This document shows positions 3,539-28,967 of a stretch of 30,838 nucleotides of DNA, one piece after another. A program made the translations under genes and the position numbers. Source of the stretch: a virus. Where the stretch lies: positions 1-30,838 of the IMG/VR virus record IMGVR_UViG_3300031521_000262. The stretch is one strand, 5' to 3'. The notes below the pieces were generated by a model. It was not told where the DNA came from and did not search any database. It worked only from the letters and a program-made list of their open reading frames with translations. Within the stretch, counting starts at the first letter, position 1; every line of letters begins with the position of its first letter.

Positions 3539-3683
3539 ATAGATGTTGTAGAGCTATCAGCATAAAGTACTATTTTTTACATTTATTTTATTTGGAGTGT
3601 AACTATATCAACCATTCTGCGTATAATTGCATGACGGACGGGGGGGAGGGGATGTAGCAGGCGGTCAGTGTTCTTTAACATGT

Positions 3684-3766
3684 TGGTGGAAAGTCCTAGT
3701 ACTAGAAAAGGCGGGTCGTACCCATAGCTGGCAACAGAGCCAGTATTCATTTACAGGTTATGGGGT
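3684..3766 (+). ncRNA. Candidate structured RNA
   Basis: GC-richer island in AT-rich non-coding DNA with consecutive helices. CTGGC (3728-3732) pairs with GCCAG (3739-3743) around the loop AACAGA. An enclosing helix CCCATA (3721-3726)/TATGGG (3759-3764) surrounds it. GGGT/ACCC (3713-3716/3720-3723) is an alternative hairpin. Upstream, GGTGGAAAGTCC (3685-3696) resembles the conserved GAGGAAAGUCC block of RNase P RNA, but the rest of that RNA is absent. Function unknown; could be a leader RNA of the gene starting at 3858. Confidence 0.3.
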
Positions 3767-3842
3767 AGTGCTGCTAATAAATAGTAAGGCGAGAATTGTG
3801 CTTTAAATGGTGTTTAATTAGTTATTATTTTATTAATTTTTA

Positions 3843-3863
3843 TTAAAACTTACGAAAATGACA
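3843..3863 (+). promoter_or_regulatory. Conserved start-site block, copy 1
   Basis: TAAAACTTACGAAAATGACA, which includes the ATG at 3858-3860, is identical at 5031-5050 and 6995-7014. Related forms (AACTTACAAG, AACTTATAGA, AACTTACTGAAT, AACTTACAAAA, AACTT) precede the starts at 5481, 6149, 7636, 8649 and 12565. It replaces a Shine-Dalgarno sequence and fixes the start codons of these genes. Confidence 0.6.
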
Positions 3864-4442
3864 AAAAGTAGAAAAAATGCTAAAAATTTGGTTATTGGTA
3901 CAGTTAATAACGCAAACGTTTCTAACGGTATTGCAAGTTCAAACAAAGCTGGTGCGGTAGCAACTGCCAACGTATTAAAAAAACTTACTGAGGAGCGCGA
4001 AACGGCTAGATTGGCTAAATTAGCTGCCGCCCCTGAACGTAGTAAAAAAGCTGCTTTGTTGGTTACGGAACGCAAATTAACAAATATGCTGAAAACGGCA
4101 GCGGTTAAAAAAGCTGCAAAAAAGGACAAAAAGAGCTCCACTAATGCCACGAAAGCTGCTAAATACGGTAGCATATACGAAGGGGTTAAAAATATGCATC
4201 TTTTGGCTGCTATGCTGCTTAAAAACAAAGCCACACAGGCTGAGATTGCGAAGGCGTTTATTACTGCTTATGGTTACAAAAATGTAACGGATTTGACTTT
4301 TATTGCTGGGCGTATTACAATTTACTTAAAGCATGCAACGACGCTGGATTTGCTTAAAGGCTTGCAAGCTGCTGCCGTTGTGCCTGCTGTTATTAACGAA
4401 CCGGCTGCTGAGGCTGTTAAAACTGCCGACGATGCAAAATAA
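3858..4442 (+). CDS. Lys/Ala-rich protein with shared C-terminal domain (paralogue A)
   Basis: A 194-aa basic protein. Residues 1-100 are low-complexity Lys/Ala/Asn-rich and resemble histone H1-like tails. Residues about 103-160 form a small folded domain, KYGSIYEGVKN...AYGYKNVTDLTFIAGRITIYL. It matches the C-terminal domains of the genes at 6149 and 23448: all three have an aromatic/Tyr helix, then (V/I)TD.(K/T)F(I/V)..R..IY(M/L). The Lys/Ala tail suggests nucleic-acid binding, possibly phage DNA condensation; this is inference. Start chosen from the TTAAAACTTACGAAAATG block. It is the first gene of the rightward early unit and is somewhat richer in G+C than its neighbours. Confidence 0.75.
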   Translation: MTKSRKNAKNLVIGTVNNANVSNGIASSNKAGAVATANVLKKLTEERETARLAKLAAAPERSKKAALLVTERKLTNMLKTAAVKKAAKKDKKSSTNATKAAKYGSIYEGVKNMHLLAAMLLKNKATQAEIAKAFITAYGYKNVTDLTFIAGRITIYLKHATTLDLLKGLQAAAVVPAVINEPAAEAVKTADDAK

Positions 4443-5902: not shown

Positions 5903-6064
5903 ATGGTAAAACAAAAAGAATTGACTATGGATGAGAAGGTTGCTATTGTTTGTGGACATTTGAACAAGGCGGCTGACAAGAAAGCAGTACAGGAAATAAC
6001 CCCTGAGGTTGCTACCAAAACAAACAAGAAGTTGATTAAAGAATCTCAAGTTAGTACAAATTAA
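5903..6064 (+). CDS. Hypothetical small Lys-rich protein (53 aa)
   Basis: A 53-aa reading frame started at the ATG in the ATTATG context (5903), which matches the start context of many genes here; the frame is open further upstream without a better start. Composition is Lys/Glu/Thr-rich (MVKQKELTMDEKVAIVCGHL... KTNKKLIKESQ). Its stop is followed two bases later by the tRNA-like minihelix at 6066. Not recognised. Confidence 0.5.
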   Translation: MVKQKELTMDEKVAIVCGHLNKAADKKAVQEITPEVATKTNKKLIKESQVSTN

Positions 6065-6065
6065 A

Positions 6066-6110
6066 TCTGGAACGGTTCTAGTTAGGGAGGGTTCGAGTCC
6101 CTCCTCCAGA
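6066..6110 (+). ncRNA. tRNA-like minihelix (acceptor stem plus T-arm only)
   Basis: TCTGGA (6066-6071) pairs with TCCAGA (6105-6110). A perfect 6-bp T-stem GGAGGG (6086-6091)/CCCTCC (6099-6104) encloses the canonical T-loop TTCGAGT (6092-6098). Acceptor and T-stem 3' strands are contiguous, giving a 12-bp coaxial helix as in tRNA. Only 14 bases (6072-6085) sit where the D-arm and anticodon arm should be. No encoded CCA. It could be a processing signal read by RNase P or RNase Z in the polycistronic RNA, or a tRNA remnant. The structure is seen directly; function is unknown. Confidence 0.55.
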
Positions 6111-6148
6111 ACTCAGCAATATTGCTGTAATCAAAAAAAACTTATAGA

Positions 6149-6808
6149 ATGAAAAACAAGAAATCGAAAAAGAATCTTCAGAAGGTTCTGAACGTCAGTG
6201 CTGAACAAAGGGCTATCGAAGCTGCCATTGAATTGGAAGCAAAACAAGCAAAGAAAGTGACTACTGCTCCAAAAGCAGAAGTTGAACACAAAGTTGTTAT
6301 CGCAAAAGAAGGTGAAACAGGTTCACAACTGCGGAAACGGGTTATTGTAGCACAGACAAGCGAAAAAGCTGCAAAGGTTAATCCGGAGTTAAAAGACAAA
6401 GTGAATTCGGCTAAAGAAGCTACGAAAGAAACACCGAAAGGGGTTATGGCTGCAATTGCTAAGGCTAAAGCTGCAAAGGCTGACAAGGCTGTGAAAGAAG
6501 GCAAGACGGTTAAAGCAAAGAAAGCTGATAATGCTGGTAAATACATCAACAGTATTACTTCGATGGAAAAGCTCGGTGAGTTTTGTCATGCACAAGGTTG
6601 GAAAGAGGACAGCAAAGAAACGATTGCTGCTTACGTTGCCGGATACGGATTGAAAGGTGTTACTGACATGAAGTTTATTACCCCGAGAATTGCGATTTAT
6701 ATGAACATCGCTCGGAAACGTGCTGCAAAGACTCCAGCCGTACTTGACAAGAAAGAACAAGCTGTTAAGAAAGAAGAAAAGGTTGAAGCAAAAACATCAA
6801 AGAAATAG
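6149..6808 (+). CDS. Lys/Ala-rich protein with shared C-terminal domain (paralogue B)
   Basis: A 219-aa basic protein. Residues 1-130 are Lys/Ala/Glu-rich and low-complexity (AIAKAKAAKADKAVKEGK), like histone H1-type tails. Residues about 131-190 carry the domain shared with the genes at 3858 and 23448 (KYINSITSMEKLG...GYGLKGVTDMKFITPRIAIYMNIA); the match to paralogue A is clear in YG.K.VTD..FI..RI.IY. A Lys-rich tail of 25 residues follows. Start supported by AAAACTTATAGAATG. Probable nucleic-acid-binding or scaffold protein by composition; function unproven. A terminator follows at 6833. Confidence 0.75.
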   Translation: MKNKKSKKNLQKVLNVSAEQRAIEAAIELEAKQAKKVTTAPKAEVEHKVVIAKEGETGSQLRKRVIVAQTSEKAAKVNPELKDKVNSAKEATKETPKGVMAAIAKAKAAKADKAVKEGKTVKAKKADNAGKYINSITSMEKLGEFCHAQGWKEDSKETIAAYVAGYGLKGVTDMKFITPRIAIYMNIARKRAAKTPAVLDKKEQAVKKEEKVEAKTSKK

Positions 6809-9840: not shown

Positions 9841-12558
9841 ATGTATAACAGTACTCCTACAAAAAGTAACGCTGAAAAAGCTGTGAAACTAGCAGAGCTT
9901 AAAAACGGTACACCTGTTTGTAGAATTGAGTTTCCCTACAACCAAGAAGACCTTAATAGGGTACGAGGTTTAAGGGAACGAAAATACTATCCAGAAGGTA
10001 AATACTGGACATGTCCTGTAGATGTTCCTTCATTGGAACTTCTAGCAGAATGGGGATTTAAACTTGATTCTAATTTACAAGCTATCCTAGATCGCTCAAA
10101 AGTATCTATCACAGATGTCAAGGAAATTAAAATACCAGGATTAAAAGGGACGTTAAGACCGTTTCAAAATATTGGTGTTAGTTTTATTGATGCTAAGAAT
10201 GGTAGATGTTTAATTGCAGATGAGATGGGCTTGGGTAAAGCACAACCTTGGTACACCAAAGTACTAACACCTTCTGGATGGAAGCAGATAGGTAATCTTT
10301 CTTTAAAAGATCAAGTATTTGGATCTGATGGAATATCTCATAAGTTAAAAGGAATCTACAATAAAGGAAATAAGAAAGTGTATAAGGTTACATTTTCTGA
10401 TAAAACTTCTGTAGAATGTTGTGAAGACCATTTATGGACGATTTACTCTCCTAGAGACAAATGGATGGGATTTCCTAGTAAGACTTTTCCATTAAAAGAA
10501 ATTATGAAAATGCAATTAAAATCAGATAAGAAATCTAAGGCTAATTTAGTCTTTATACCTATGCTTTCTGATGCAATTGACTTTCCAGAAAGGAAATTAA
10601 TTATTCCTCCATACACAATGGGTGCTTTATTAGGTGACGGAGGTATTTCTAAAGGAGTTTGTTTTTCTAACACAGATTCTGATATTATTGAAAGAGTTGG
10701 AAACGAACTGCTTCCATTGGGGTACACATTGAAAAAAGACAAAGGTGAGAATTGTGATTTCCATGTAGTGCATACAAATCCAAAAGACAAGTCTAAAATT
10801 AATGAAATAAAAAACATTATCAGAAAGTATAGATTAAATGTTACTTCAGAATACAAGTATATTCCTGATGATTATAAATTTGGTTCTATAGAACAAAGAG
10901 CTGAACTATTAAGAGGACTTCTTGATACAGACGGTTATGCAAGTTTAAAATCTGGAGTTATTCAATTTACGTCTGTTTCGGAACAATTATGTGACGATGT
11001 TGTTTTTTTAGTTGAGTCTTTTGGAGGTATTGCAAGAAAGAAATCCTATCCTGGAATACAAGTTTGTCCAAATGGAGACAAGAAAATAGGAAAGATAGCT
11101 CATTCACTCACAATAATGATGCCGAAAGGAAATAATCCTTTCTTTTGCATAAGAAAAAGAACCTCTTGTAAAGAGAAAGTAAAATACAGTCCTGCAAGAG
11201 CTATCACAAAAATAGAGTATGTAAAAACAGATTTATGTTTCTGCATTTCTGTAGACACAAAGGATCATTTATATGTCACAGAACATTGTATATTGACACA
11301 TAATACTGTCCAGGCTTTAGCTTACCTACAACTGCATAAAGAACTTCGGACAGCAATCATTGTCGTTCCTGCTTCTTTAAAACTTAACTGGCTAAGAGAA
11401 ACATTTAATTGGATACCTAATTCTCAGGCAGAAGTATTAACAGGAAGAACTCCATACAAAACGACTGGAAAGATTCTTATTCTTAATTATGACATTTTAG
11501 AAGCTTGGGTACCTTATTTGATTAAGATTAAGCCAAAGATCCTAATAATGGATGAGGTACATTGTATTAAAAACGGTGCTGCTAAAAGAACAAAGGCTGC
11601 TAAGAAATTAGGTAAAGTTGTAGAACACATTATTGGTTTATCTGGTACTCCTGTACTTAACAGACCGATTGAAATATACAATGCTGTATCAATGATAGAT
11701 CCTACTGTATTAGGTTCTTATTTTGTATTTACGAAGCGTTATTGTGATGCTAAGAAATCTATATGGGGTACAAATGTACAAGGTGCTTCTAATGTTGAAG
11801 AGTTGCACAGGAAACTGACAAGTACTGTCATGTTAAGAAGACTGAAGGTAAATGTTGCAAAAGATTTGCCAGACAAACAGACAGCTTTTGTACCTATTGA
11901 GTTAGACAATTGGGCTGAGTATGTTTATGCAGAACGAAACTTTATTAAATGGGTAAGTGAAACGAAAGGTACTGCCGCAGCAATTAGAGCTTCCAATGCA
12001 GAAACATTAGGTCAGATTAATGCTTTAAAACAATTGGCTGTAAAAGGTAAAATGGCTAATGTTATATCTTGGATAGAAGAGTTTATTGACTCAGGTGAGA
12101 AGCTTGTATTGTTTTGTACTCATACAGCGACAATTGATGCTATAATGACAGCATTTCCAAAGATATCTGTTAGGTATGATGGAGGTGTTAATCAATCAAA
12201 CAGAGACAAAGCAGTAACATCATTTCAGACAGACGTTAGAATTAAATTATTTGTTGGGATGTTAGATGCTGCTGGAAATCCTGCAGGAGTAGGTTTAACA
12301 TTAACCGCAGCTTGGTCCACAGCAACAATTGAATATCAATACACCCCAGGTGTACATGATCAAGCAGACGACAGAATACACAGGATTGGACAAAAGAATG
12401 CCTGTACCAATTATAAATTGATTGCAGCAGGTACAATTGAAGAAAAGATTGCAGCTTTACTAGATAAGAAACGTCAAATTGTAGACGGTATATTAGATGG
12501 TAAACGTACACCTGCAGAATCCTTACTAATGGAACTTATTAAATCTTACCAAAAATAA
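9841..12558 (+). CDS. SNF2-family (SMARCAL1/HARP-like) DNA helicase with intein
   Basis: A 905-aa precursor: 550 aa of helicase after removal of the 355-aa intein (residues 134-488). The N-terminal part (about 17-60, with FPYNQEDLNRVRGLRERKYY and WTCPV) resembles a HARP-like domain. The helicase core shows motif I split as DEMGLGK/T across the intein, motif II DEVH (MDEVHCIKNG), motif III LSGTPV, and motif VI DDRIHRIGQKN. These motifs define the SNF2 branch of superfamily 2. Such enzymes use ATP to translocate on duplex DNA, and SMARCAL1-like members anneal or remodel forks. It is placed just ahead of the replication genes. Activity requires intein excision, since the P-loop is otherwise interrupted. 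Confidence 0.92.
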   Translation: MYNSTPTKSNAEKAVKLAELKNGTPVCRIEFPYNQEDLNRVRGLRERKYYPEGKYWTCPVDVPSLELLAEWGFKLDSNLQAILDRSKVSITDVKEIKIPGLKGTLRPFQNIGVSFIDAKNGRCLIADEMGLGKAQPWYTKVLTPSGWKQIGNLSLKDQVFGSDGISHKLKGIYNKGNKKVYKVTFSDKTSVECCEDHLWTIYSPRDKWMGFPSKTFPLKEIMKMQLKSDKKSKANLVFIPMLSDAIDFPERKLIIPPYTMGALLGDGGISKGVCFSNTDSDIIERVGNELLPLGYTLKKDKGENCDFHVVHTNPKDKSKINEIKNIIRKYRLNVTSEYKYIPDDYKFGSIEQRAELLRGLLDTDGYASLKSGVIQFTSVSEQLCDDVVFLVESFGGIARKKSYPGIQVCPNGDKKIGKIAHSLTIMMPKGNNPFFCIRKRTSCKEKVKYSPARAITKIEYVKTDLCFCISVDTKDHLYVTEHCILTHNTVQALAYLQLHKELRTAIIVVPASLKLNWLRETFNWIPNSQAEVLTGRTPYKTTGKILILNYDILEAWVPYLIKIKPKILIMDEVHCIKNGAAKRTKAAKKLGKVVEHIIGLSGTPVLNRPIEIYNAVSMIDPTVLGSYFVFTKRYCDAKKSIWGTNVQGASNVEELHRKLTSTVMLRRLKVNVAKDLPDKQTAFVPIELDNWAEYVYAERNFIKWVSETKGTAAAIRASNAETLGQINALKQLAVKGKMANVISWIEEFIDSGEKLVLFCTHTATIDAIMTAFPKISVRYDGGVNQSNRDKAVTSFQTDVRIKLFVGMLDAAGNPAGVGLTLTAAWSTATIEYQYTPGVHDQADDRIHRIGQKNACTNYKLIAAGTIEEKIAALLDKKRQIVDGILDGKRTPAESLLMELIKSYQK
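10240..11304 (+). mobile_element. Full-length intein with LAGLIDADG endonuclease, Walker A insertion
   Basis: A 355-residue in-frame insertion between Lys133 and Thr489. The N-terminal block is AQPWYTKVLTPSGWK, which starts with Ala instead of Cys/Ser; block B is near CEDHLW. The two dodecapeptide blocks LLGDGGI (about 130-136) and LLDTDGYAS (about 227-235) mark a DOD homing endonuclease. The C-terminal block DHLYVTEHCILTHN ends in His-Asn and is followed by Thr+1. All splicing features except the usual first nucleophile are present, so splicing presumably follows the Ala1 (class 2-like) route. Insertion in a P-loop is a favoured site for inteins. Confidence 0.92.
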
Positions 12559-21331: not shown

Positions 21332-21448
21332 GAGACTATGGTGGAATTGGCAGACACCAACCTAAAACAGTTCGGACATTGAGGTTTAAGAATAGCCGTG
21401 CTGATATATGGTTCCTCAGTTCCAGGTTCGAGTCCTGGTAGTCTCACA
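21332..21448 (+). tRNA. Oversized leucine-type tRNA-like RNA, anticodon unclear
   Basis: The acceptor stem GAGACTA (21332-21338)/TAGTCTC (21439-21445) is perfect. The D-arm GTGGAATTGGCAGACAC is of leucine type, and the T-arm is CCAGG-TTCGAGT-CCTGG. At the canonical anticodon-stem position AACCT pairs with AGGTT, but the loop is 18 bases (AAAACAGTTCGGACATTG) instead of 7. An alternative helix TGAGG/CCTCA defines a very long variable arm. Total length is about 115 bases against 85-90 for a normal tRNA-Leu. No anticodon can be assigned with confidence. Confidence 0.6.
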
Positions 21449-21459
21449 AATTTTTAATC

Positions 21460-21589
21460 GGGGGGTATCAAAATGGGTAATGTGCCTGCGGTAACGCGGC
21501 CGCAACGTAGATGGTTAACAGACGGGATTTGCTTAAGTCTGCTCGGACACGGAACATCACTGAGGAGTTTGATTCTCCTCCCCTCCACA
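21460..21589 (+). tRNA. Second oversized tRNA-like RNA
   Basis: The T-arm GAGGAG-TTTGATT-CTCCTC (21563-21580) has a 6-bp stem. The acceptor 3' strand CCCTCC (21581-21586) is followed by ACA and pairs with GGGGGG (21460-21465) with one G-U pair; this gives a 6+6 bp coaxial helix. CAGAC/GTCTG can form a 5-bp stem with a 13-base loop, where an anticodon arm might sit. CCTGCG-GTAA-CGCGG forms a hairpin near 21485-21500. The overall length of about 128 bases is far above a normal tRNA, and no anticodon is assigned. It may be a non-decoding tRNA-like RNA or part of the tmRNA precursor. Confidence 0.4.
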
Positions 21590-21611
21590 AGTTCATTCTG
21601 ATTACGGAGTC

Positions 21612-21935: not shown

Positions 21936-22295
21936 ATGTTCAAAATTACAAAAGAGTTTACCTGTTGTTCTAGTCATGTATTAAACGGACTACCAAAGGA
22001 ACACCCTTGTGCCAGATTACACGGCCATAACTACGTTATTAGAGTAGAGTTAATCTCAGACAATCTAAATGATGTAGGCTTTGTATTTGATTACAGAGGA
22101 CTTGACTACATCAAACAATGGATTGATGAAACAATGGATCACAAACATCTTAATGATGTGTTTGACTTTAATCCTACTGCTGAGAATATGTCAATGCACA
22201 TCTACCAGATTTTTAAATTGAGTTTACCACAGTTAAATGCAATTGAGATTTCTGAGACACCGAAAACGAATGCTCGTTACTCTTTAGAAAAGTAA
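21936..22295 (+). CDS. queD: 6-carboxy-tetrahydropterin synthase (QueD)
   Basis: Second step of 7-deazaguanine synthesis: converts dihydroneopterin triphosphate from FolE into 6-carboxy-tetrahydropterin. The 119-aa protein has the family's usual length and T-fold layout. The zinc ligands are His14 (SSHVLNGLP), His29 and His31 (LHGHNY), and Cys25 (KEHPCARLHG) is the catalytic cysteine. PTAENMSMHIY and ISETPKTNARY near the C-terminus are also diagnostic, the latter giving the substrate-binding Glu. First gene of the modification locus, three bases before queE. Confidence 0.92.
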   Translation: MFKITKEFTCCSSHVLNGLPKEHPCARLHGHNYVIRVELISDNLNDVGFVFDYRGLDYIKQWIDETMDHKHLNDVFDFNPTAENMSMHIYQIFKLSLPQLNAIEISETPKTNARYSLEK

Positions 22296-22298
22296 ACA

Positions 22299-23075
22299 AT
22301 GGAAGCTACTCAAATAATCAAAGCGTTTCCAACCTTTACTAAGATTATTGAAAGTGGAAGGTTACCTAAAGCACACATACTCCATGTGTCGGAATTCTTT
22401 TGCGACTCTATTCAAGGAGAAGGTGTTAACGCAGGAGTTCCTGCAGCCTTTTTAAGATTGAAAGGATGTGTATTGGATTGTACTTGGTGTGATACTACGG
22501 AAGTATGGAGGCAAGGAAATCCTTATACGTTTGCAGAGTTGTTTTGTCTAATGGATGTCTGCGGTTTACCAAACAAATTATTGCACGGGCAACATCTAGT
22601 ACTTACAGGAGGAAGCCCGTTATGTCAGCAGATGTCTGTGCTGAATTTTATTAATGAGTTTATCAAAAGATACTCATTCTGTCCTTATATTGAGATAGAG
22701 AATGAATGTACTATCAAGCCGATGGATGAATTGGTGCATTACATCTCATGTTGGAACAATTCTCCTAAACTTTCCAATTCTGGCAATGATGTAGATGTAT
22801 GTTACAAACCTGCAATCTTAGAAACTTTAGCTGCTTTAAATAACTCTTGGTTTAAATTTGTTATTACCAGTCAAAAAGAATGGGATGAGATAGATTGTTT
22901 ATATCTCAGTACAGGTATTATTCAAAGAGAACAAATCATTTTGATGCCTCAAGGCTCTACAAAAGAGGACATTGAAGCAAACAGAGAAATGGTTATTGAG
23001 ATGGCTATAAAACATGAGGTAAGATATTGTACCAGAGAACACATTATTGTATGGGGGAAGAAAATCGGGATTTAA
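22299..23075 (+). CDS. queE: 7-carboxy-7-deazaguanine synthase (QueE)
   Basis: Radical SAM enzyme that contracts the pterin ring of the QueD product to give 7-carboxy-7-deazaguanine (CDG). The phrase SEFFCDSIQGEGVNAGVPAAF precisely matches the family N-terminus apart from small changes. The [4Fe-4S] cluster ligands are Cys57, Cys61 and Cys64 in RLKGCVLDCTWCDT. A GGE-type SAM motif is present as LTGGSPLCQQ, with Ser in place of the usual Glu. At 258 aa it is slightly longer than most QueE proteins. It directly follows queD. Confidence 0.9.
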   Translation: MEATQIIKAFPTFTKIIESGRLPKAHILHVSEFFCDSIQGEGVNAGVPAAFLRLKGCVLDCTWCDTTEVWRQGNPYTFAELFCLMDVCGLPNKLLHGQHLVLTGGSPLCQQMSVLNFINEFIKRYSFCPYIEIENECTIKPMDELVHYISCWNNSPKLSNSGNDVDVCYKPAILETLAALNNSWFKFVITSQKEWDEIDCLYLSTGIIQREQIILMPQGSTKEDIEANREMVIEMAIKHEVRYCTREHIIVWGKKIGI

Positions 23076-23143
23076 AAATGAACAAAAAGTTACAGCATAT
23101 TACGAAAGGGTTATTTACGGTTCATTTTTTACACATTAATTCT

Positions 23144-23377
23144 ATGGAAAAAGAAAAGTCAGAATTATTAAATAAAGTTTCCAGTCTTGTTAAAACTGCT
23201 AAAAATTTATTAACAGAAATAAAAGACGATGAAATACAATCCTTTGCCAATTTATCGGAAGAGGATCAGGCTACTATTGAGGGCCAAAAATATGCCCAAA
23301 CGGCTGCTCTACTTGAGGATATAATTTATTCTTTGGAAGATGTTGTAGAAAACATCCCTAAGGCAATAGAAGACTAA
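23144..23377 (+). CDS. Hypothetical acidic helical protein (77 aa)
   Basis: A 77-aa acidic helical protein (MEKEKSELLNKVSSLVKTAKNLLTEIKDDEIQSF..., LEDIIYSLEDVVENIPKAIED), probably a coiled coil. The ATG at 23144 is preferred because the segment between the queE stop and this point reads as AT-rich leader. A start at 23078, two bases after the queE stop, would give 99 aa and remains possible. Not recognised. It precedes the third Lys-rich paralogue. Confidence 0.5.
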   Translation: MEKEKSELLNKVSSLVKTAKNLLTEIKDDEIQSFANLSEEDQATIEGQKYAQTAALLEDIIYSLEDVVENIPKAIED

Positions 23378-23447
23378 TTTTTATCCTTATACTTAAGACT
23401 TGTTAATTAGTATTGAATTAATCATTAATCATTAAAAATTCGTTAAA

Positions 23448-24275
<828 letters not shown>

Positions 24276-24302
24276 TCCATCCAATTTTTATTTAAATCTA
24301 AG

Positions 24303-24337
24303 TAAGGGAAGTTCGTGACTGTCTTCCCTTATTTTTT
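24303..24337 (+). terminator. Rho-independent terminator
   Basis: TAAGGGAAG (24303-24311) pairs perfectly with CTTCCCTTA (24323-24331), followed by six T. It separates the 23448 gene from folE. Confidence 0.8.
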
Positions 24338-24349
24338 AAACTTTAAGAA

Positions 24350-24898
24350 ATGCAAAGAACTATCGTTCAGATAATTGCGGATCAATTGTCGTATATTGGT
24401 GAAGATCCAACTAGAGAAGGGCTGTTAGACACTCCAAATCGCATTGTTAAGTCCTGGGGTGAGTTATATTCTGGCTATGGAAAAGATCCTGCAGACTTGC
24501 TTACTGTGTTTGAAGTAGGTACTTACAATCAAATTGTTTTATTAAAAGATATTGAAATCTACAGTATGTGTGAACATCACATGCTTCCTTTTTACGGAGT
24601 TGCTCATGTAGCTTATATACCCGGGGAACATGTTATTGGGATCTCTAAACTTGCAAGACTTGTAGATATGTTTTCCCGTAGGATGCAAATCCAAGAACGT
24701 ATTGGAGAACAGGTAACAGACGCTCTAATGCAATATCTGCAACCTAAAGGTGCTGCTTGTATTATTGAAGCTTGTCATATGTGCATGAGAATGCGAGGAG
24801 TAGGTAAACAAGGTTCAACTATGGTTACTTCTTCGATGAAGGGAGAGTTTTTTACCAATGCTGCTGCTAAGGCAGAATTAATGCAAATGATAAAATGA
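24350..24898 (+). CDS. folE: GTP cyclohydrolase I (FolE)
   Basis: First step of the pathway: GTP to dihydroneopterin triphosphate, the substrate of QueD. The 182-aa protein covers the whole family length. Motifs: DPTREGLLDTPNR (residues about 18-30), YSMCEHHMLPFYGVAHVAYIP with zinc ligand Cys and His, VIGISKLARLVDMFSRR, and ACHMCMRMRGVGKQGSTMVTS with the second Cys ligand. Starts 12 bases after the terminator T-run. Its TGA overlaps the following ATG. Confidence 0.95.
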   Translation: MQRTIVQIIADQLSYIGEDPTREGLLDTPNRIVKSWGELYSGYGKDPADLLTVFEVGTYNQIVLLKDIEIYSMCEHHMLPFYGVAHVAYIPGEHVIGISKLARLVDMFSRRMQIQERIGEQVTDALMQYLQPKGAACIIEACHMCMRMRGVGKQGSTMVTSSMKGEFFTNAAAKAELMQMIK

Positions 24899-25170
24899 AG
24901 ACAATTTACAAATACTCATTGGAAACAATAAAGAATCAGTTTATTGATCTTCCTGTAGATTCAAAAATACTTTGTGTTCAAACACAAAATGACACTCCTT
25001 GTATCTGGGCACTTGTAGATGATGCTGTTGCTGCATTGGAAACAAGAATCATCTACACATACGGTACCGGACATGATATACCAGATGCAGACAATTTAGT
25101 TTACATTGGTACATATCAATTGCTGATTGGAAAATTAATCTTCCATGTATTTGAAAAAGTAATAAAATGA
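24895..25170 (+). CDS. DUF7352-type phage protein (91 aa)
   Basis: A 91-aa beta-rich protein with the layout of a small family common in phages: MKTIYKYSLE..., 'LP..SKIL.VQ.QN..PC.WALVD', 'Y.TGH.IP', and a C-terminal FHVFE strand. No enzymatic function is known for the family. ATGA overlap with folE at the start and with the next gene at the end, so it is translated together with them. Confidence 0.6.
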   Translation: MKTIYKYSLETIKNQFIDLPVDSKILCVQTQNDTPCIWALVDDAVAALETRIIYTYGTGHDIPDADNLVYIGTYQLLIGKLIFHVFEKVIK

Positions 25171-25496
25171 AAAAATTTGTAGTAATCACAACAAGTTTTC
25201 CAGCCACACATAACTGGCCCTCATGCAACATTCCAGAAGTTTATTATTTAGCATCTGCTCACAGACACGTTTTCCATGTTACCATGAAGTTTAAAATAAA
25301 GCACATGGATAGGGATGTTGAGTTTATATCAGAGAAGATGAAAATAGACTCTTTTATTTCTGAGAAATACAGAGACAAACATTTAAAAGAAAAGTCTTGT
25401 GAAATGATATCTTGGGAATTAATGGAAAAGTTTAATGCTGATTTTGTGTCTGTCTTTGAGGACGGGGAAAATGGCGCTGAGATTTATAAAGATTAA
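25167..25496 (+). CDS. Possible T-fold (QueD-like) protein (109 aa)
   Basis: A 109-aa protein of a phage family that I recognise only by pattern: FPATHNWPSC..EVYYLASAHRHVFHV at the start, SCEMISWELMEKF in the middle and VSVFEDGENGAEI at the end. The HRHxFH motif followed by a long strand pair and a C-terminal Glu resembles the QueD/PTPS T-fold (His ligands, late Glu), and its place beside FolE fits. It could be a pterin- or deazaguanine-binding enzyme or an accessory subunit. The catalytic Cys of QueD is not obvious. ATGA overlap with the previous gene. Confidence 0.5.
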   Translation: MKKFVVITTSFPATHNWPSCNIPEVYYLASAHRHVFHVTMKFKIKHMDRDVEFISEKMKIDSFISEKYRDKHLKEKSCEMISWELMEKFNADFVSVFEDGENGAEIYKD

Positions 25497-25508
25497 AAAA
25501 TTAAAACG

Positions 25509-26864
25509 ATGCAAAAATATTTAAAAATAAACATAATCGATCCTTCATCGACTGAATTCAATCGCGGATCATTTTGCTACGCCCCTTACCTTTGTTACAA
25601 CTTTTTAGCACCTACAAATGATGTAACTTTGTACGAAAGCTTCCAGCCTGAGGATCTTGACTTAATAACAGACGCTGCTGTTCAAATAGTATGTTTGTGG
25701 TCTTACCCACAGATAGAAACTGCGACGTTACTGGCACAAATGTTGCCCTTTATGTATGGTAAAAATAATGTATTCTTTGTAGGGTACACTCCGCTGATTA
25801 AACAGTTAGGATTACCTCATATAGAATTGACATTGGGGTTTGATCCTTTACAAGATGAAAACAGTCTTAAAACAGCAATGTTGATGTACCCGGTTTATTA
25901 TTCTCATTTTAAAAGATTACTTTTAAGTGATTGTGACATGCACCTCAAACACTTGGACAAAGATGAGAAAGTTTACCCGCTGTTTACATCTTACGGTTGT
26001 CCGAACGGATGTGCTTTTTGTCCATCGACTACTAACTGTGGTAAACGTAGAATTGAACTTCCTTTAAAGGATGTTTTCAATATGCTCATAATGTGTACTA
26101 AACAAGAAATTAAGAACATCCATTTTACGGATGAGGATTTCTTTTATGACATTGACAGAGCAAGAGAAATCCTGTTGTATTTAAACGGAAAAGAAATGCA
26201 TCTGATTGCATTAGGATCTTCAGACAAGGTGCTTGCTTTTATTGATAAATACGGTGTAGATATTATCAAAAATGCCGGACTGGAAATTATTGAGATTGGA
26301 TTTGAATCCGGAGATGCAAAAGTTTCACAATCTATGGGACAAGGAAAAGATTTAGATGATTGTGAAAACTTAGCTGCAATTCAACACATGCTGCCATTTA
26401 AAATATTCTGGTTGCTGCTTACATTCTTTCCTGGGGAGACAATTAAGTCTTTGAACAAGACAGGAGAGTTTATGCTGGAGAATGGGTTTGAGATGGAAGA
26501 GGTTGTTGGTCGACTTCGAACAAATGGTACAAAAGGCGGACTAGGACAATTCTTCCAGAGATACGAAGGAACCTCGATCGATAATGCTGCCAATAAAAAA
26601 GGAATGACTTTAACAGAAAGACCTATTAGGTTAGTACCTTCATATTTGCCTCATAGTTTCCTCGAGAGTGTCATTACTGAATACAGCCCGAATTTGCTTG
26701 AATCAGCCTTCCCTTATTTAAACTTATACAATGTAACACTTCCTACAAAGGACATTGAAATCGGGATGACAGTAGGCGATTACATATACGGGGAATCTAC
26801 GTATGTAAAAACACAGATGGCTATCACTTTTGCCATCCTTGCACGTTTCGGAATCATTAAATAA
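25509..26864 (+). CDS. Radical SAM enzyme with cobalamin-binding-like N-domain
   Basis: A 451-aa protein. Residues 1-130 resemble the alpha/beta N-terminal domain of B12-dependent radical SAM proteins (KINIIDPSS..., VQIVCLWSYPQIETATLLAQML, VFFVGYTP). The radical SAM core has Cys164-x3-Cys168-x2-Cys171 in SYGCPNGCAFCPS, plus IHFTDEDFFYD and GLEIIEIGFESGD, both typical of this class. The substrate is unknown. Its position between FolE and the glycosyltransferase/DpdA pair suggests methylation or another C-C modification of the 7-deazaguanine base or a sugar; this is inference. Confidence 0.75.
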   Translation: MQKYLKINIIDPSSTEFNRGSFCYAPYLCYNFLAPTNDVTLYESFQPEDLDLITDAAVQIVCLWSYPQIETATLLAQMLPFMYGKNNVFFVGYTPLIKQLGLPHIELTLGFDPLQDENSLKTAMLMYPVYYSHFKRLLLSDCDMHLKHLDKDEKVYPLFTSYGCPNGCAFCPSTTNCGKRRIELPLKDVFNMLIMCTKQEIKNIHFTDEDFFYDIDRAREILLYLNGKEMHLIALGSSDKVLAFIDKYGVDIIKNAGLEIIEIGFESGDAKVSQSMGQGKDLDDCENLAAIQHMLPFKIFWLLLTFFPGETIKSLNKTGEFMLENGFEMEEVVGRLRTNGTKGGLGQFFQRYEGTSIDNAANKKGMTLTERPIRLVPSYLPHSFLESVITEYSPNLLESAFPYLNLYNVTLPTKDIEIGMTVGDYIYGESTYVKTQMAITFAILARFGIIK

Positions 26865-26874
26865 TTTATTTAAA

Positions 26875-27900
26875 ATGGTAATACTCAATATTCCTATTGA
26901 GCCGCTCGAGGAGCGATACTCAACACAATGGGACAAGTGGTTTAAAGCTGCTTTTGAAACCTCAGGCTTAGATGTTGTTCATGTTTACGGACAGGAAACA
27001 AGTGGTAAAATTAACAGTGGCAGTTTCTTGGATGTTATTGAAACAAATCAGTACAAAACATCGCAACTCCAGATGATACTAAAATTTTTGTCTGGGTATG
27101 ATAAGGAAGAAAAAATAGTATTGTTTTTTCATGATCTTTGGTTTCCTGGGCTTGAGACTATTGCATACATCCGAGAAGGGTTAGGTCTAAAGTATCTCAA
27201 GATTTGCGGATGCCTTCATGCAGGCAGTTACGACGAGTTTGACTTTTTGAATAAAAAAGGAATGACTCCTTGGGCAGAGCACATGGAGATGGGTTGGCTT
27301 AATGGGATTGTAGACAAGATTTTTGTTGCTACAGAGTTCCATAAAAGACTGCTCATTAAAACAAGGATGTGGAAAAATCCTAATAAGATTGAAGTAACAG
27401 GGTTTCCATTCTATACGGATTTTATCAACCCAGAGTTTACAAGAGAATATACTAATCGGGAAAAGATTATTGTATTTCCTCACAGACTTGATGCAGAAAA
27501 GAATCCTCAAATGTTTAATAAACTTAAAGCAGACTTAGAGGATGAGTTTTCTGATTGGAACTTTTGTATGACAAAGAAGTTCTGTGACACAAAAGACAGG
27601 TATTACCAAATACTTCAAAAAGCATACATTTCTGTATCGTTTGCTGATCAAGAGACCTGGGGTATTGCTATGCAAGAATCTGTTATATGTGGATGCTTAC
27701 CACTTGTACCAAACAGACTGTCTTATTCCGAAATGTATCTTCCTATTTTTAAATATGATTGTGAATGTGATTTAGTAGACAGAATCAGGATGCTTATTTT
27801 GCACTACCCTGACTTATCCATGAATCAACAACATTACACTATTATGAAGAAAGGAAAGGATGCTATTCCAAACATGATTAAAATCATACGAGAATTATGA
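26875..27900 (+). CDS. GT-B (family 4-like) glycosyltransferase
   Basis: A 341-aa protein with the two-domain GT-B pattern. C-terminal donor domain motifs: IIVFPHRLDAEKNPQMF (strand and loop as in '..GRL...K'), YISVSFADQETWGIAMQESVICGCLPLVPN with the Glu-x7-Glu pair, and SYSEMY. The N-terminal half has IVLFFHDLWFPG and CGCLHAGSYD, typical acceptor-domain loops. Start at 26875, after TTTAAA; an upstream frame overlapping the radical SAM gene is discarded. It overlaps dpdA by four bases (ATGA), the strongest sign that it acts on the same modification. Acceptor could be the modified base. Confidence 0.75.
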   Translation: MVILNIPIEPLEERYSTQWDKWFKAAFETSGLDVVHVYGQETSGKINSGSFLDVIETNQYKTSQLQMILKFLSGYDKEEKIVLFFHDLWFPGLETIAYIREGLGLKYLKICGCLHAGSYDEFDFLNKKGMTPWAEHMEMGWLNGIVDKIFVATEFHKRLLIKTRMWKNPNKIEVTGFPFYTDFINPEFTREYTNREKIIVFPHRLDAEKNPQMFNKLKADLEDEFSDWNFCMTKKFCDTKDRYYQILQKAYISVSFADQETWGIAMQESVICGCLPLVPNRLSYSEMYLPIFKYDCECDLVDRIRMLILHYPDLSMNQQHYTIMKKGKDAIPNMIKIIREL

Positions 27901-28967
27901 AACATTCTATCTACGATTACAAAGTCTTTATTGACTGCGGTGCACCTTCTTTGTACAACAAGTTGTCAAGGAATGTATTATCTGATGCTAAAGGCATAAT
28001 GGGTACTAAAATGAGTGAACGTAAATTTGATGATTACTCATATGTAGACAAACCGGAGTATGCAGCATATAGACAATCTTACATTGATTTCATGCTGAAA
28101 CATAGTGACGAAGTTAATGTTTACTCCAACTTAGACGTTATTAACAATCCGCAGCTTACCTACAGAAATCAAAAGATTCTTGAGGAGGCAGGCTTGCACC
28201 CTATTCCTGTTTGGCATTTAGGGAATGACGTAAAATGGTTAGAGCGTTATCTCAAGTCTTATGACTACATAGCAATCGGAGGTCTTGTACCTAACCCGAC
28301 AAGTGTTTTAATCCCTTTGCTTGATAAACTGTTTAAAGATCATTTATTAGACAGTGACGGATTTCCAAAAGTTAAGCTTCATGGATTTGCTTGTACCAGT
28401 TTACCTTTAATGAAGCGTTACTCTTGGTATTCTGTGGATAGTGCAACTTGCAGAAAACTTGCTAACTTCGGGTCTATTGTAATTCCGATCGAGGATAAAG
28501 AAAATCCGATAAGTACTTTCCAAGTATCTGCTAGACCTAAAATCATTAAAGAAAATGAATGTGGGTTTGGTTTAGAAGCTCAAGCAGGTAATTGGCTGGG
28601 AGGAATGAGTAAGCATACCAAAAAAGCATTTGACAAACGTCTTGAGAAGTATGGGATGACTATTGATCAATTAGGAGCAAGTATTATCCAACGAGTTGTT
28701 TGGAATTATCTCATGTTCTCTGAAGTTATACAGGAAACAGTTCCAAACTGGCCCTGGAGTATGCACACTAGGCAATCAACACCACCTGTACAAGGAGAAT
28801 GTCCACAATACATGACTTTTTACTTTGCTGGAATATTAAGCAAAAGTGAAGAGGATGAGTTTTGGAAAGGTGTTGCTGTTGAAAGTATCTCTAAATTAAA
28901 AGGAACTCTTAGATCCTTTTTCTACGAAAAGAATGCAGAGTATGTTTTATCACTTAAAAATACCTAA
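27897..28967 (+). CDS. dpdA: DpdA-like DNA guanine transglycosylase
   Basis: A TGT-superfamily enzyme that exchanges guanine in DNA for a 7-deazaguanine. The 356-aa protein shows the family's landmarks: FIDCGAPSL at residues 11-19 (as in 'F.DSGA', with the catalytic-type Asp), YIAIGGLVP (124-132), KLHGFACTSLPLM (160-172) and YSWYSVDSATCRK (175-187) with the nucleophile-type Asp. These distinguish phage DpdA from tRNA TGT. It is the last step of the FolE-QueD-QueE pathway in this locus. Without QueC here the inserted base may be CDG or preQ0 from a distant or host QueC. Confidence 0.85.
   Translation: MKHSIYDYKVFIDCGAPSLYNKLSRNVLSDAKGIMGTKMSERKFDDYSYVDKPEYAAYRQSYIDFMLKHSDEVNVYSNLDVINNPQLTYRNQKILEEAGLHPIPVWHLGNDVKWLERYLKSYDYIAIGGLVPNPTSVLIPLLDKLFKDHLLDSDGFPKVKLHGFACTSLPLMKRYSWYSVDSATCRKLANFGSIVIPIEDKENPISTFQVSARPKIIKENECGFGLEAQAGNWLGGMSKHTKKAFDKRLEKYGMTIDQLGASIIQRVVWNYLMFSEVIQETVPNWPWSMHTRQSTPPVQGECPQYMTFYFAGILSKSEEDEFWKGVAVESISKLKGTLRSFFYEKNAEYVLSLKNT

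Follow-up and report, generated by a model that had tools for sequence, protein, structure and literature searches.

A large family of minimal transfer-RNA-like hairpins positioned behind the stop codons of phage genes

In the IMG/VR virus record IMGVR_UViG_3300031521_000262, the complete 30,838 bases of which constitute the stretch analyzed here (hereinafter the window), a 45-letter hairpin at positions 6066–6110 lies between two protein-coding genes. It had been singled out from the letters of the window, in what we term the original prediction, as a minimal mimic of transfer RNA (tRNA) and a possible RNA-processing signal. Here, we report that this hairpin is a member of a large family of phage mini-tRNAs: it is matched by a covariance model built without it, its pairing is maintained by compensatory changes in an ortholog, and it shares with its relatives, which number more than a hundred, a position just behind a stop codon on the coding strand. 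We further propose that the element probably acts in cis as a minimal tRNA mimic at the end of a gene and would be processed by ribonuclease P (RNase P) of the host.

Read directly, the hairpin comprises 12 pairs, Watson–Crick throughout, split 6+6 as against the canonical 7+5 of an acceptor/T-arm. The complete 12-base-pair (bp) helix, the TTCGAGT loop and the 14-base linker are present just as predicted, and the comparative evidence places them beyond chance. The prediction had also located the element two bases after a stop codon; it does begin just past one (TAA, 6062–6064), with a gap of a single base, A6065. Taken alone, its folding energy is not significant (z = −1.24; −1.48 in a second run), and GGTTCT of the linker (6074–6079) can pair with AGAACT (6108–6113) in competition with the acceptor stem, a pairing that is also possible in the closest relative of the window phage and might represent either a switch or a coincidence. 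Hence, the case for the hairpin rests on comparison.

A DNA similarity search of the phage collection gave no match, and searching IMG/VR with the protein encoded downstream yielded no relatives by that route; a terminase query succeeded, retrieving 29 related IMG/VR loci, one of which (L007) carries two similar mini hairpins. A DNA pattern derived from the common linker motif was run over IMG/VR and one genome per species, with a second pattern providing an independent set, and most of the viral matches to the pattern have the same fold. The covariance model R1, with 37 members and the window copy excluded, recovers the window hairpin at 35.3 bits (E = 5.8e-7) and finds 139 matches at E < 5e-4 in 92 loci; true tRNA and transfer-messenger RNA (tmRNA) T-arms score below 20 bits under it. 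Copies are found in IMG/VR phages, Streptomyces phage TG1 and cultured Mycobacterium phages (Cuke, Indlulamithi, Fowlmouth, Predator and the Wildcat-type), with up to 11 per phage genome. About 1190 random bacterial genomes from four phyla gave one further match; thus, it is not a general cellular element. Among the cellular genomes with copies are Glycomyces species (L195, L179, L155 and L161) sharing a near-identical copy, which in L195 and L179 stands directly behind FtsK-like genes and probably belongs to an integrative element, and the Bacteroidota genomes L165, L171, L177, L190, L191 and L194, in which the copies probably belong to prophages, those of L165, L177 and L190 having Mu-like transposase genes nearby. 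The nearest cultured relatives of the window terminase are from Cellulophaga phages (about 36%); hence, the host of the window phage is probably a Bacteroidota bacterium.

The signature of selection on the pairing is strong. In the 37-sequence alignment 98.2% of the cells are paired and 181 are changed on both sides, as against 51 in shuffles, with a covariation score of 0.998 that falls to 0.18 after shuffling and does not exceed 0.20 in slid controls. Since the members of this alignment were partly picked for pairing, we made two unbiased tests with matches picked by linker and loop only. In the first set all six acceptor pairs are in register in 45 of 104 matches, versus 8 of 520 in shifted registers; in the second, obtained with the second pattern, at least five pairs form in 66 of 103, versus 8 of 618 controls. 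At the level of orthologs, the closest relative of the window phage (70% by terminase; the record of L002 and L127) has in L127 a hairpin preceded one base earlier by the end of a small open reading frame (ORF) and followed by a 52% identical ortholog of the 219-amino-acid protein encoded downstream in the window. Between the two copies, four of the 12 pairs are changed on both sides in a compensatory fashion, one becomes G–U and none is broken, with the linker and loop remaining unchanged. Likewise, orthologous copies of Cuke and Fowlmouth (the GCGCC elements) display compensatory differences in the T-stem. On these comparative grounds, namely the R1 match, the compensations in orthologs and more than a hundred relatives, we consider the evidence decisive for the reality of the hairpin; the covariation in related phages for which the original prediction had asked is found, and an absence of conserved pairing is excluded.

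The placement of the family relative to genes is equally distinctive. In four annotated mycobacteriophages 32 of 37 matches start between −6 and +13 nucleotides (nt) of a stop codon, where 3–4% would be expected (per-phage p from 4e-7 to 3e-14); for the independent set the range −7 to +12 nt takes in 45 of 66, and ORF-based tests of uncultured loci agree. Most copies begin no more than about 12 nt from a stop codon, and the copies follow the strand of the genes, including the minus-strand genes of phage Cosmo. The distance itself differs by group, being often 0–1 nt in the Bacteroidota elements and 8–10 nt in the mycobacteriophages. Early-region gaps of at least 35 nt contain a copy in 40 of 59 cases (phiC31 and TG1 counted in), about 40–50 nt before the next start. 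A role in stop-codon readthrough was rejected, as in the window the frame is closed again by a TAG within the linker.

The consensus consists of an acceptor stem of 5–7 bp, a linker of AAYGGTT plus 3–9 nt, a T-stem of 5–7 bp and the loop TTCGATT. Among 122 members the total helix is 11 bp in 44, 12 bp in 55 and 13 bp in 18 (11–13 bp in 117 of 122), and at the 3′ end A predominates at N73 (66%), C at N74 (76%) and a purine at N75 (79%). The GG of the linker, or the AAYGGTT motif as a whole, is nearly invariant, and T-loop positions 55–56 are TC in 111 of the 118 scanned hairpins, 104 of these with the linker GG. The linker resembles a D-loop stripped of its stem (A14 R15 Y G18 G19 U20), and from the joint retention of TC and GG its G18 and G19 could contact the T-loop as their counterparts in tRNA do. 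In Cuke and Predator a TGCGA loop is coupled to AG in place of GG; this co-occurrence, seen in very few cases, offers a hint of tertiary covariation.

The family is further linked to tRNAs by an apparent exchange of one form for the other. The gap between gp33 and gp34 of Streptomyces phage TG1 contains a mini hairpin; in phiC31 the corresponding gp13/gp14 gap (L205, 31424–31511, plus strand) is filled by an unannotated full tRNA-like RNA whose D and T arms are complete and whose anticodon loop measures 24 nt. A tRNA-Glu of L007 and the two mini hairpins there are each followed by the same cassette, comprising N73-CAAT, a small hairpin of differing sequence and AAAAATCAAAGAAAAATG, and these cassettes have identical leaders. 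The mini and full forms thus appear interchangeable, with decoding not being the point. Accordingly, the view of the element as a tRNA mimic is strongly supported, both by its own features (conserved pairing, T-loop, D-loop-like GG linker and a helix of 11–13 bp) and by the presence, at positions equivalent to its own, of a full tRNA-like RNA in phiC31 and of a real tRNA in L007. In the window, the T-arm motif GGTTCGANTCC occurs five times with at most one mismatch, against 0.77 expected; its three exact copies belong to the hairpin, a tRNA-like gene and a permuted tmRNA.

Table 1. Parts of the hairpin and its immediate surroundings in the window
Feature	Positions	Strand	Remarks
Upstream small ORF, 53 amino acids	5903–6064	+	ATG at 5903, stop TAA 6062–6064; hairpin one base beyond
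Acceptor-like helix, 5′ strand TCTGGA	6066–6071	+	Pairs with 6105–6110
14-nt linker ACGGTTCTAGTTAG in place of the D and anticodon arms	6072–6085	+	D-loop-like ACGGTT conserved; GG at 6074–6075
T-arm	6086–6104	+	GGAGGG 6086–6091, loop TTCGAGT 6092–6098, CCCTCC 6099–6104
Acceptor-like helix, 3′ strand TCCAGA	6105–6110	+	Pairs with 6066–6071
N73 (A) and C74	6111–6112	+	Family: A at N73 in 66%, C at N74 in 76%
Second short hairpin CAGCA-ATAT-TGCTG	6114–6127	+	3 nt past the mini-tRNA
Downstream gene, 219 amino acids, Lys/Ala-rich	6149–6808	+	Function unassigned; starts 38 nt beyond the hairpin

The 219-amino-acid product encoded behind the hairpin is one of several Lys/Ala-rich proteins of the window (3858–4442, 6149–6808 and 23448–24275, all plus strand) that seemingly have a C-terminal domain in common.

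Briefly, we envisage the following mechanism. In an element transcribed between genes of a polycistronic phage messenger RNA (mRNA), the acceptor/T helix of 6+6 bp would combine with the T-loop and the linker GG to recreate the elbow (the corner of a tRNA) together with the acceptor arm, with no anticodon. Host RNase P is the most likely enzyme to recognize this element: measuring from the elbow to the end of the helix, it would cut 5′ of 6066, behind the upstream stop codon, and an RNase Z-type tRNA 3′-processing enzyme might cut near 6111. Such cuts would separate the messages of neighboring genes, leaving a downstream mRNA that begins with a folded structure, and might thereby benefit expression. 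We favor RNase P processing because the elements keep the features of its substrates and are placed so that a cut would part neighboring genes. Acceptor/T-arm hairpins are cut by E. coli RNase P RNA, and the enzyme measures from the elbow (PMC11143913, PMC4919913); a substrate of this kind has a coaxial acceptor/T helix of about 12 bp ending in a T-loop or elbow, and that of the window copy has 12 bp. The originally suggested processing signal is consistent with both the position behind stop codons and the known cleavage of acceptor/T-arm model hairpins by bacterial RNase P (PMC11143913), and cleavage of the phage element itself is probable.

Several observations weigh against this proposal: (i) the family helix spans 11–13 bp, so that 12 is not strict; (ii) C74 is kept and C75 is not (6%), so that the contact made by bacterial RNase P with a complete RCCA would be only partial, and the window copy likewise has A73 and C74 with a T replacing C75; (iii) many phages have a single copy, and hence it is no general gene separator in every genome; (iv) a hairpin starting 0–1 nt past a stop codon would be covered by the terminating ribosome; (v) the window copy has an alternative fold in which the linker pairs with AGAAC (6108–6112).

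In a broader sense, we see about an even chance that phages of several bacterial phyla generally mark gene ends with a mini-tRNA reduced to the elbow, each copy at a stop codon passing the polycistronic transcript to host RNase P and a 3′ tRNA-processing enzyme; this would be the viral equivalent of tRNA punctuation in mitochondria, with 45-nt RNAs that are exchangeable with full tRNAs. If so, gene-by-gene cutting of operon transcripts driven by host factors would be common among tailed phages, and the known minimal substrates of RNase P would be joined by a natural, widespread class. Further, many intergenic gaps annotated as empty and some of the non-decoding tRNA-like genes of phages, as in phiC31, may be processing signals. 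The phages of Mycobacterium smegmatis in culture, with about ten copies each, make these proposals directly testable.

As an alternative, the element might act on ribosomes or on mRNA stability, either as a stop-to-start insulator or as a 3′ barrier shielding the upstream message with no cleavage at all. The tight link to stop codons, the defined distance to the next start and the stable 11–13 bp helix are all compatible with such a role; however, a plain barrier has no need of a T-loop, a GG linker or N73-C74, and the variation of the stop-codon distance by group (often 0–1 nt in Bacteroidota and 8–10 nt in mycobacteriophages) also speaks against it, making it unlikely.

The gaps between genes could also be the site of an RNA acting on transcription, either a terminator lacking poly-U or an antiterminator that works in cis, as does the two-hairpin put RNA of phage HK022. 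The intergenic place, the repeats along one operon and the second hairpin often found just behind the first would suit this explanation, and stem-loop terminators without poly-U were reportedly described from the phiC31 early region in 1995. Nevertheless, an intrinsic terminator combines a GC hairpin with a U-run, and the window hairpin is followed by ACTCAGCAATATT with no U-run; nor is there a general one downstream of the family copies (T fraction 0.18; TTTT in 3 of 122). Moreover, neither the conservation of the T-loop and D-loop nor the replacement by real or full tRNA-like RNAs is needed by a transcriptional signal, and with the next gene roughly 45 nt away there is little room for new promoters, so we regard this explanation, too, as improbable. 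With respect to the second hairpin, located 3–5 nt behind the mini-tRNA, it was enriched in the first set (z = −1.15 versus −0.20; p = 1.5e-7) and not in the independent set (p = 0.55). We therefore reject it as a universal part and treat it as a lineage-specific addition; it occurs also in L127 and L007 with sequences differing from 6114–6127 of the window.

A third possibility, that the excised mini-tRNA of 38–45 nt is the product itself, for instance a decoy for tRNA-binding host defense proteins or enzymes, would exploit the tRNA-like elbow and the several copies per phage; yet the stems differ in every copy and a decoy does not need to be fixed at gene ends, which renders it a distinctly poor candidate. 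Finally, although the window phage possesses tRNA-like genes and a permuted tmRNA, and phiC31 and TG1 show that full and mini forms can replace each other, the strong compensatory changes and a linker motif common to unrelated phages signify selection on the mini form, making a decayed tRNA gene that lost its D and anticodon arms very improbable.

Processing of a tRNA mimic at the gene end, which we thus favor, has several partial precedents. The artificial acceptor/T-arm models AT1 and pMini resemble the phage element in form, and bacterial RNase P RNA cuts them at the canonical site (PMC11143913); in contrast, the phage elements are natural and intergenic, conserve a D-loop-like GG linker and have no CCA. 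Plant mitochondrial t-elements and mitochondrial tRNA punctuation similarly use tRNA-like structures in polycistronic transcripts to mark RNA ends via tRNA-processing enzymes (PMC4919922), but these are organellar and larger, whereas the phage element is minimal and present in many copies per operon, with its cleavage being proposed here. Non-tRNA transcripts cut by host RNase P include the his operon mRNA, T4 gene 32 mRNA, the C4 RNA of P1/P7 and the M3 RNA of phi80 (PMC11143913); these are single cases with no shared element, unlike the phage family. M3 RNA was rejected as a relative, as R1 has no match in phi80, the annotated M3 RNA included.

The window hairpin shares a T-arm, an acceptor-type helix and N73 with the Rfam tRNA family (RF00005), of which it is not a member: it is 45 nt long with neither a D-arm nor an anticodon arm, and neither Rfam, at gathering and permissive thresholds, nor ARAGORN makes a call at 6066–6110. 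The armless mitochondrial tRNAs of nematodes, at about 45 nt, are similar in length; they have lost the D and T arms and kept the anticodon arm, whereas the phage element keeps the T-arm and has no anticodon. In integron attC sites the defining conserved boxes, GTTRRRY/RYYYAAC, flank the fold at its outer ends; this identity was rejected since the conserved letters of the family lie inside, in the linker and loop, and the outer stems vary freely. The hairpin family has no match in Rfam 15, and no description of it was found in a search of the openly licensed literature. Hence, the family appears to be a hitherto undescribed one among phage RNAs; as a kind it belongs among the tRNA-like processing signals, in a new form.

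Other structured RNAs are evident in the window. The permuted phage tmRNA (21600–21859, plus strand; Rfam RF04321, 66.6 bits) has the tag GNDYQMKAAA according to ARAGORN. The 115-nt tRNA-like gene at 21332–21446 (plus strand; Rfam tRNA, 35.4 bits) has a very large anticodon loop and no ARAGORN call, and may be non-decoding like that of phiC31; a further tRNA-like stretch seemingly occupies about 21460–21590. An apparent structured RNA upstream of a 194-amino-acid ORF (3630–3815, plus strand) has no Rfam match, and its identification as RNase P RNA was rejected for want of Rfam support. Among the protein-coding genes, a helicase (9841–12558, plus strand) contains an intein-like insertion: residues 4–133 and 489–903 match adjacent DNA in L127, from which the middle is absent. 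Finally, a cluster at 21936–28967 (plus strand) encodes proteins resembling QueD, QueE, FolE and a relative of queuine tRNA-ribosyltransferase (the last by a family match), which suggests 7-deazaguanine modification of DNA.
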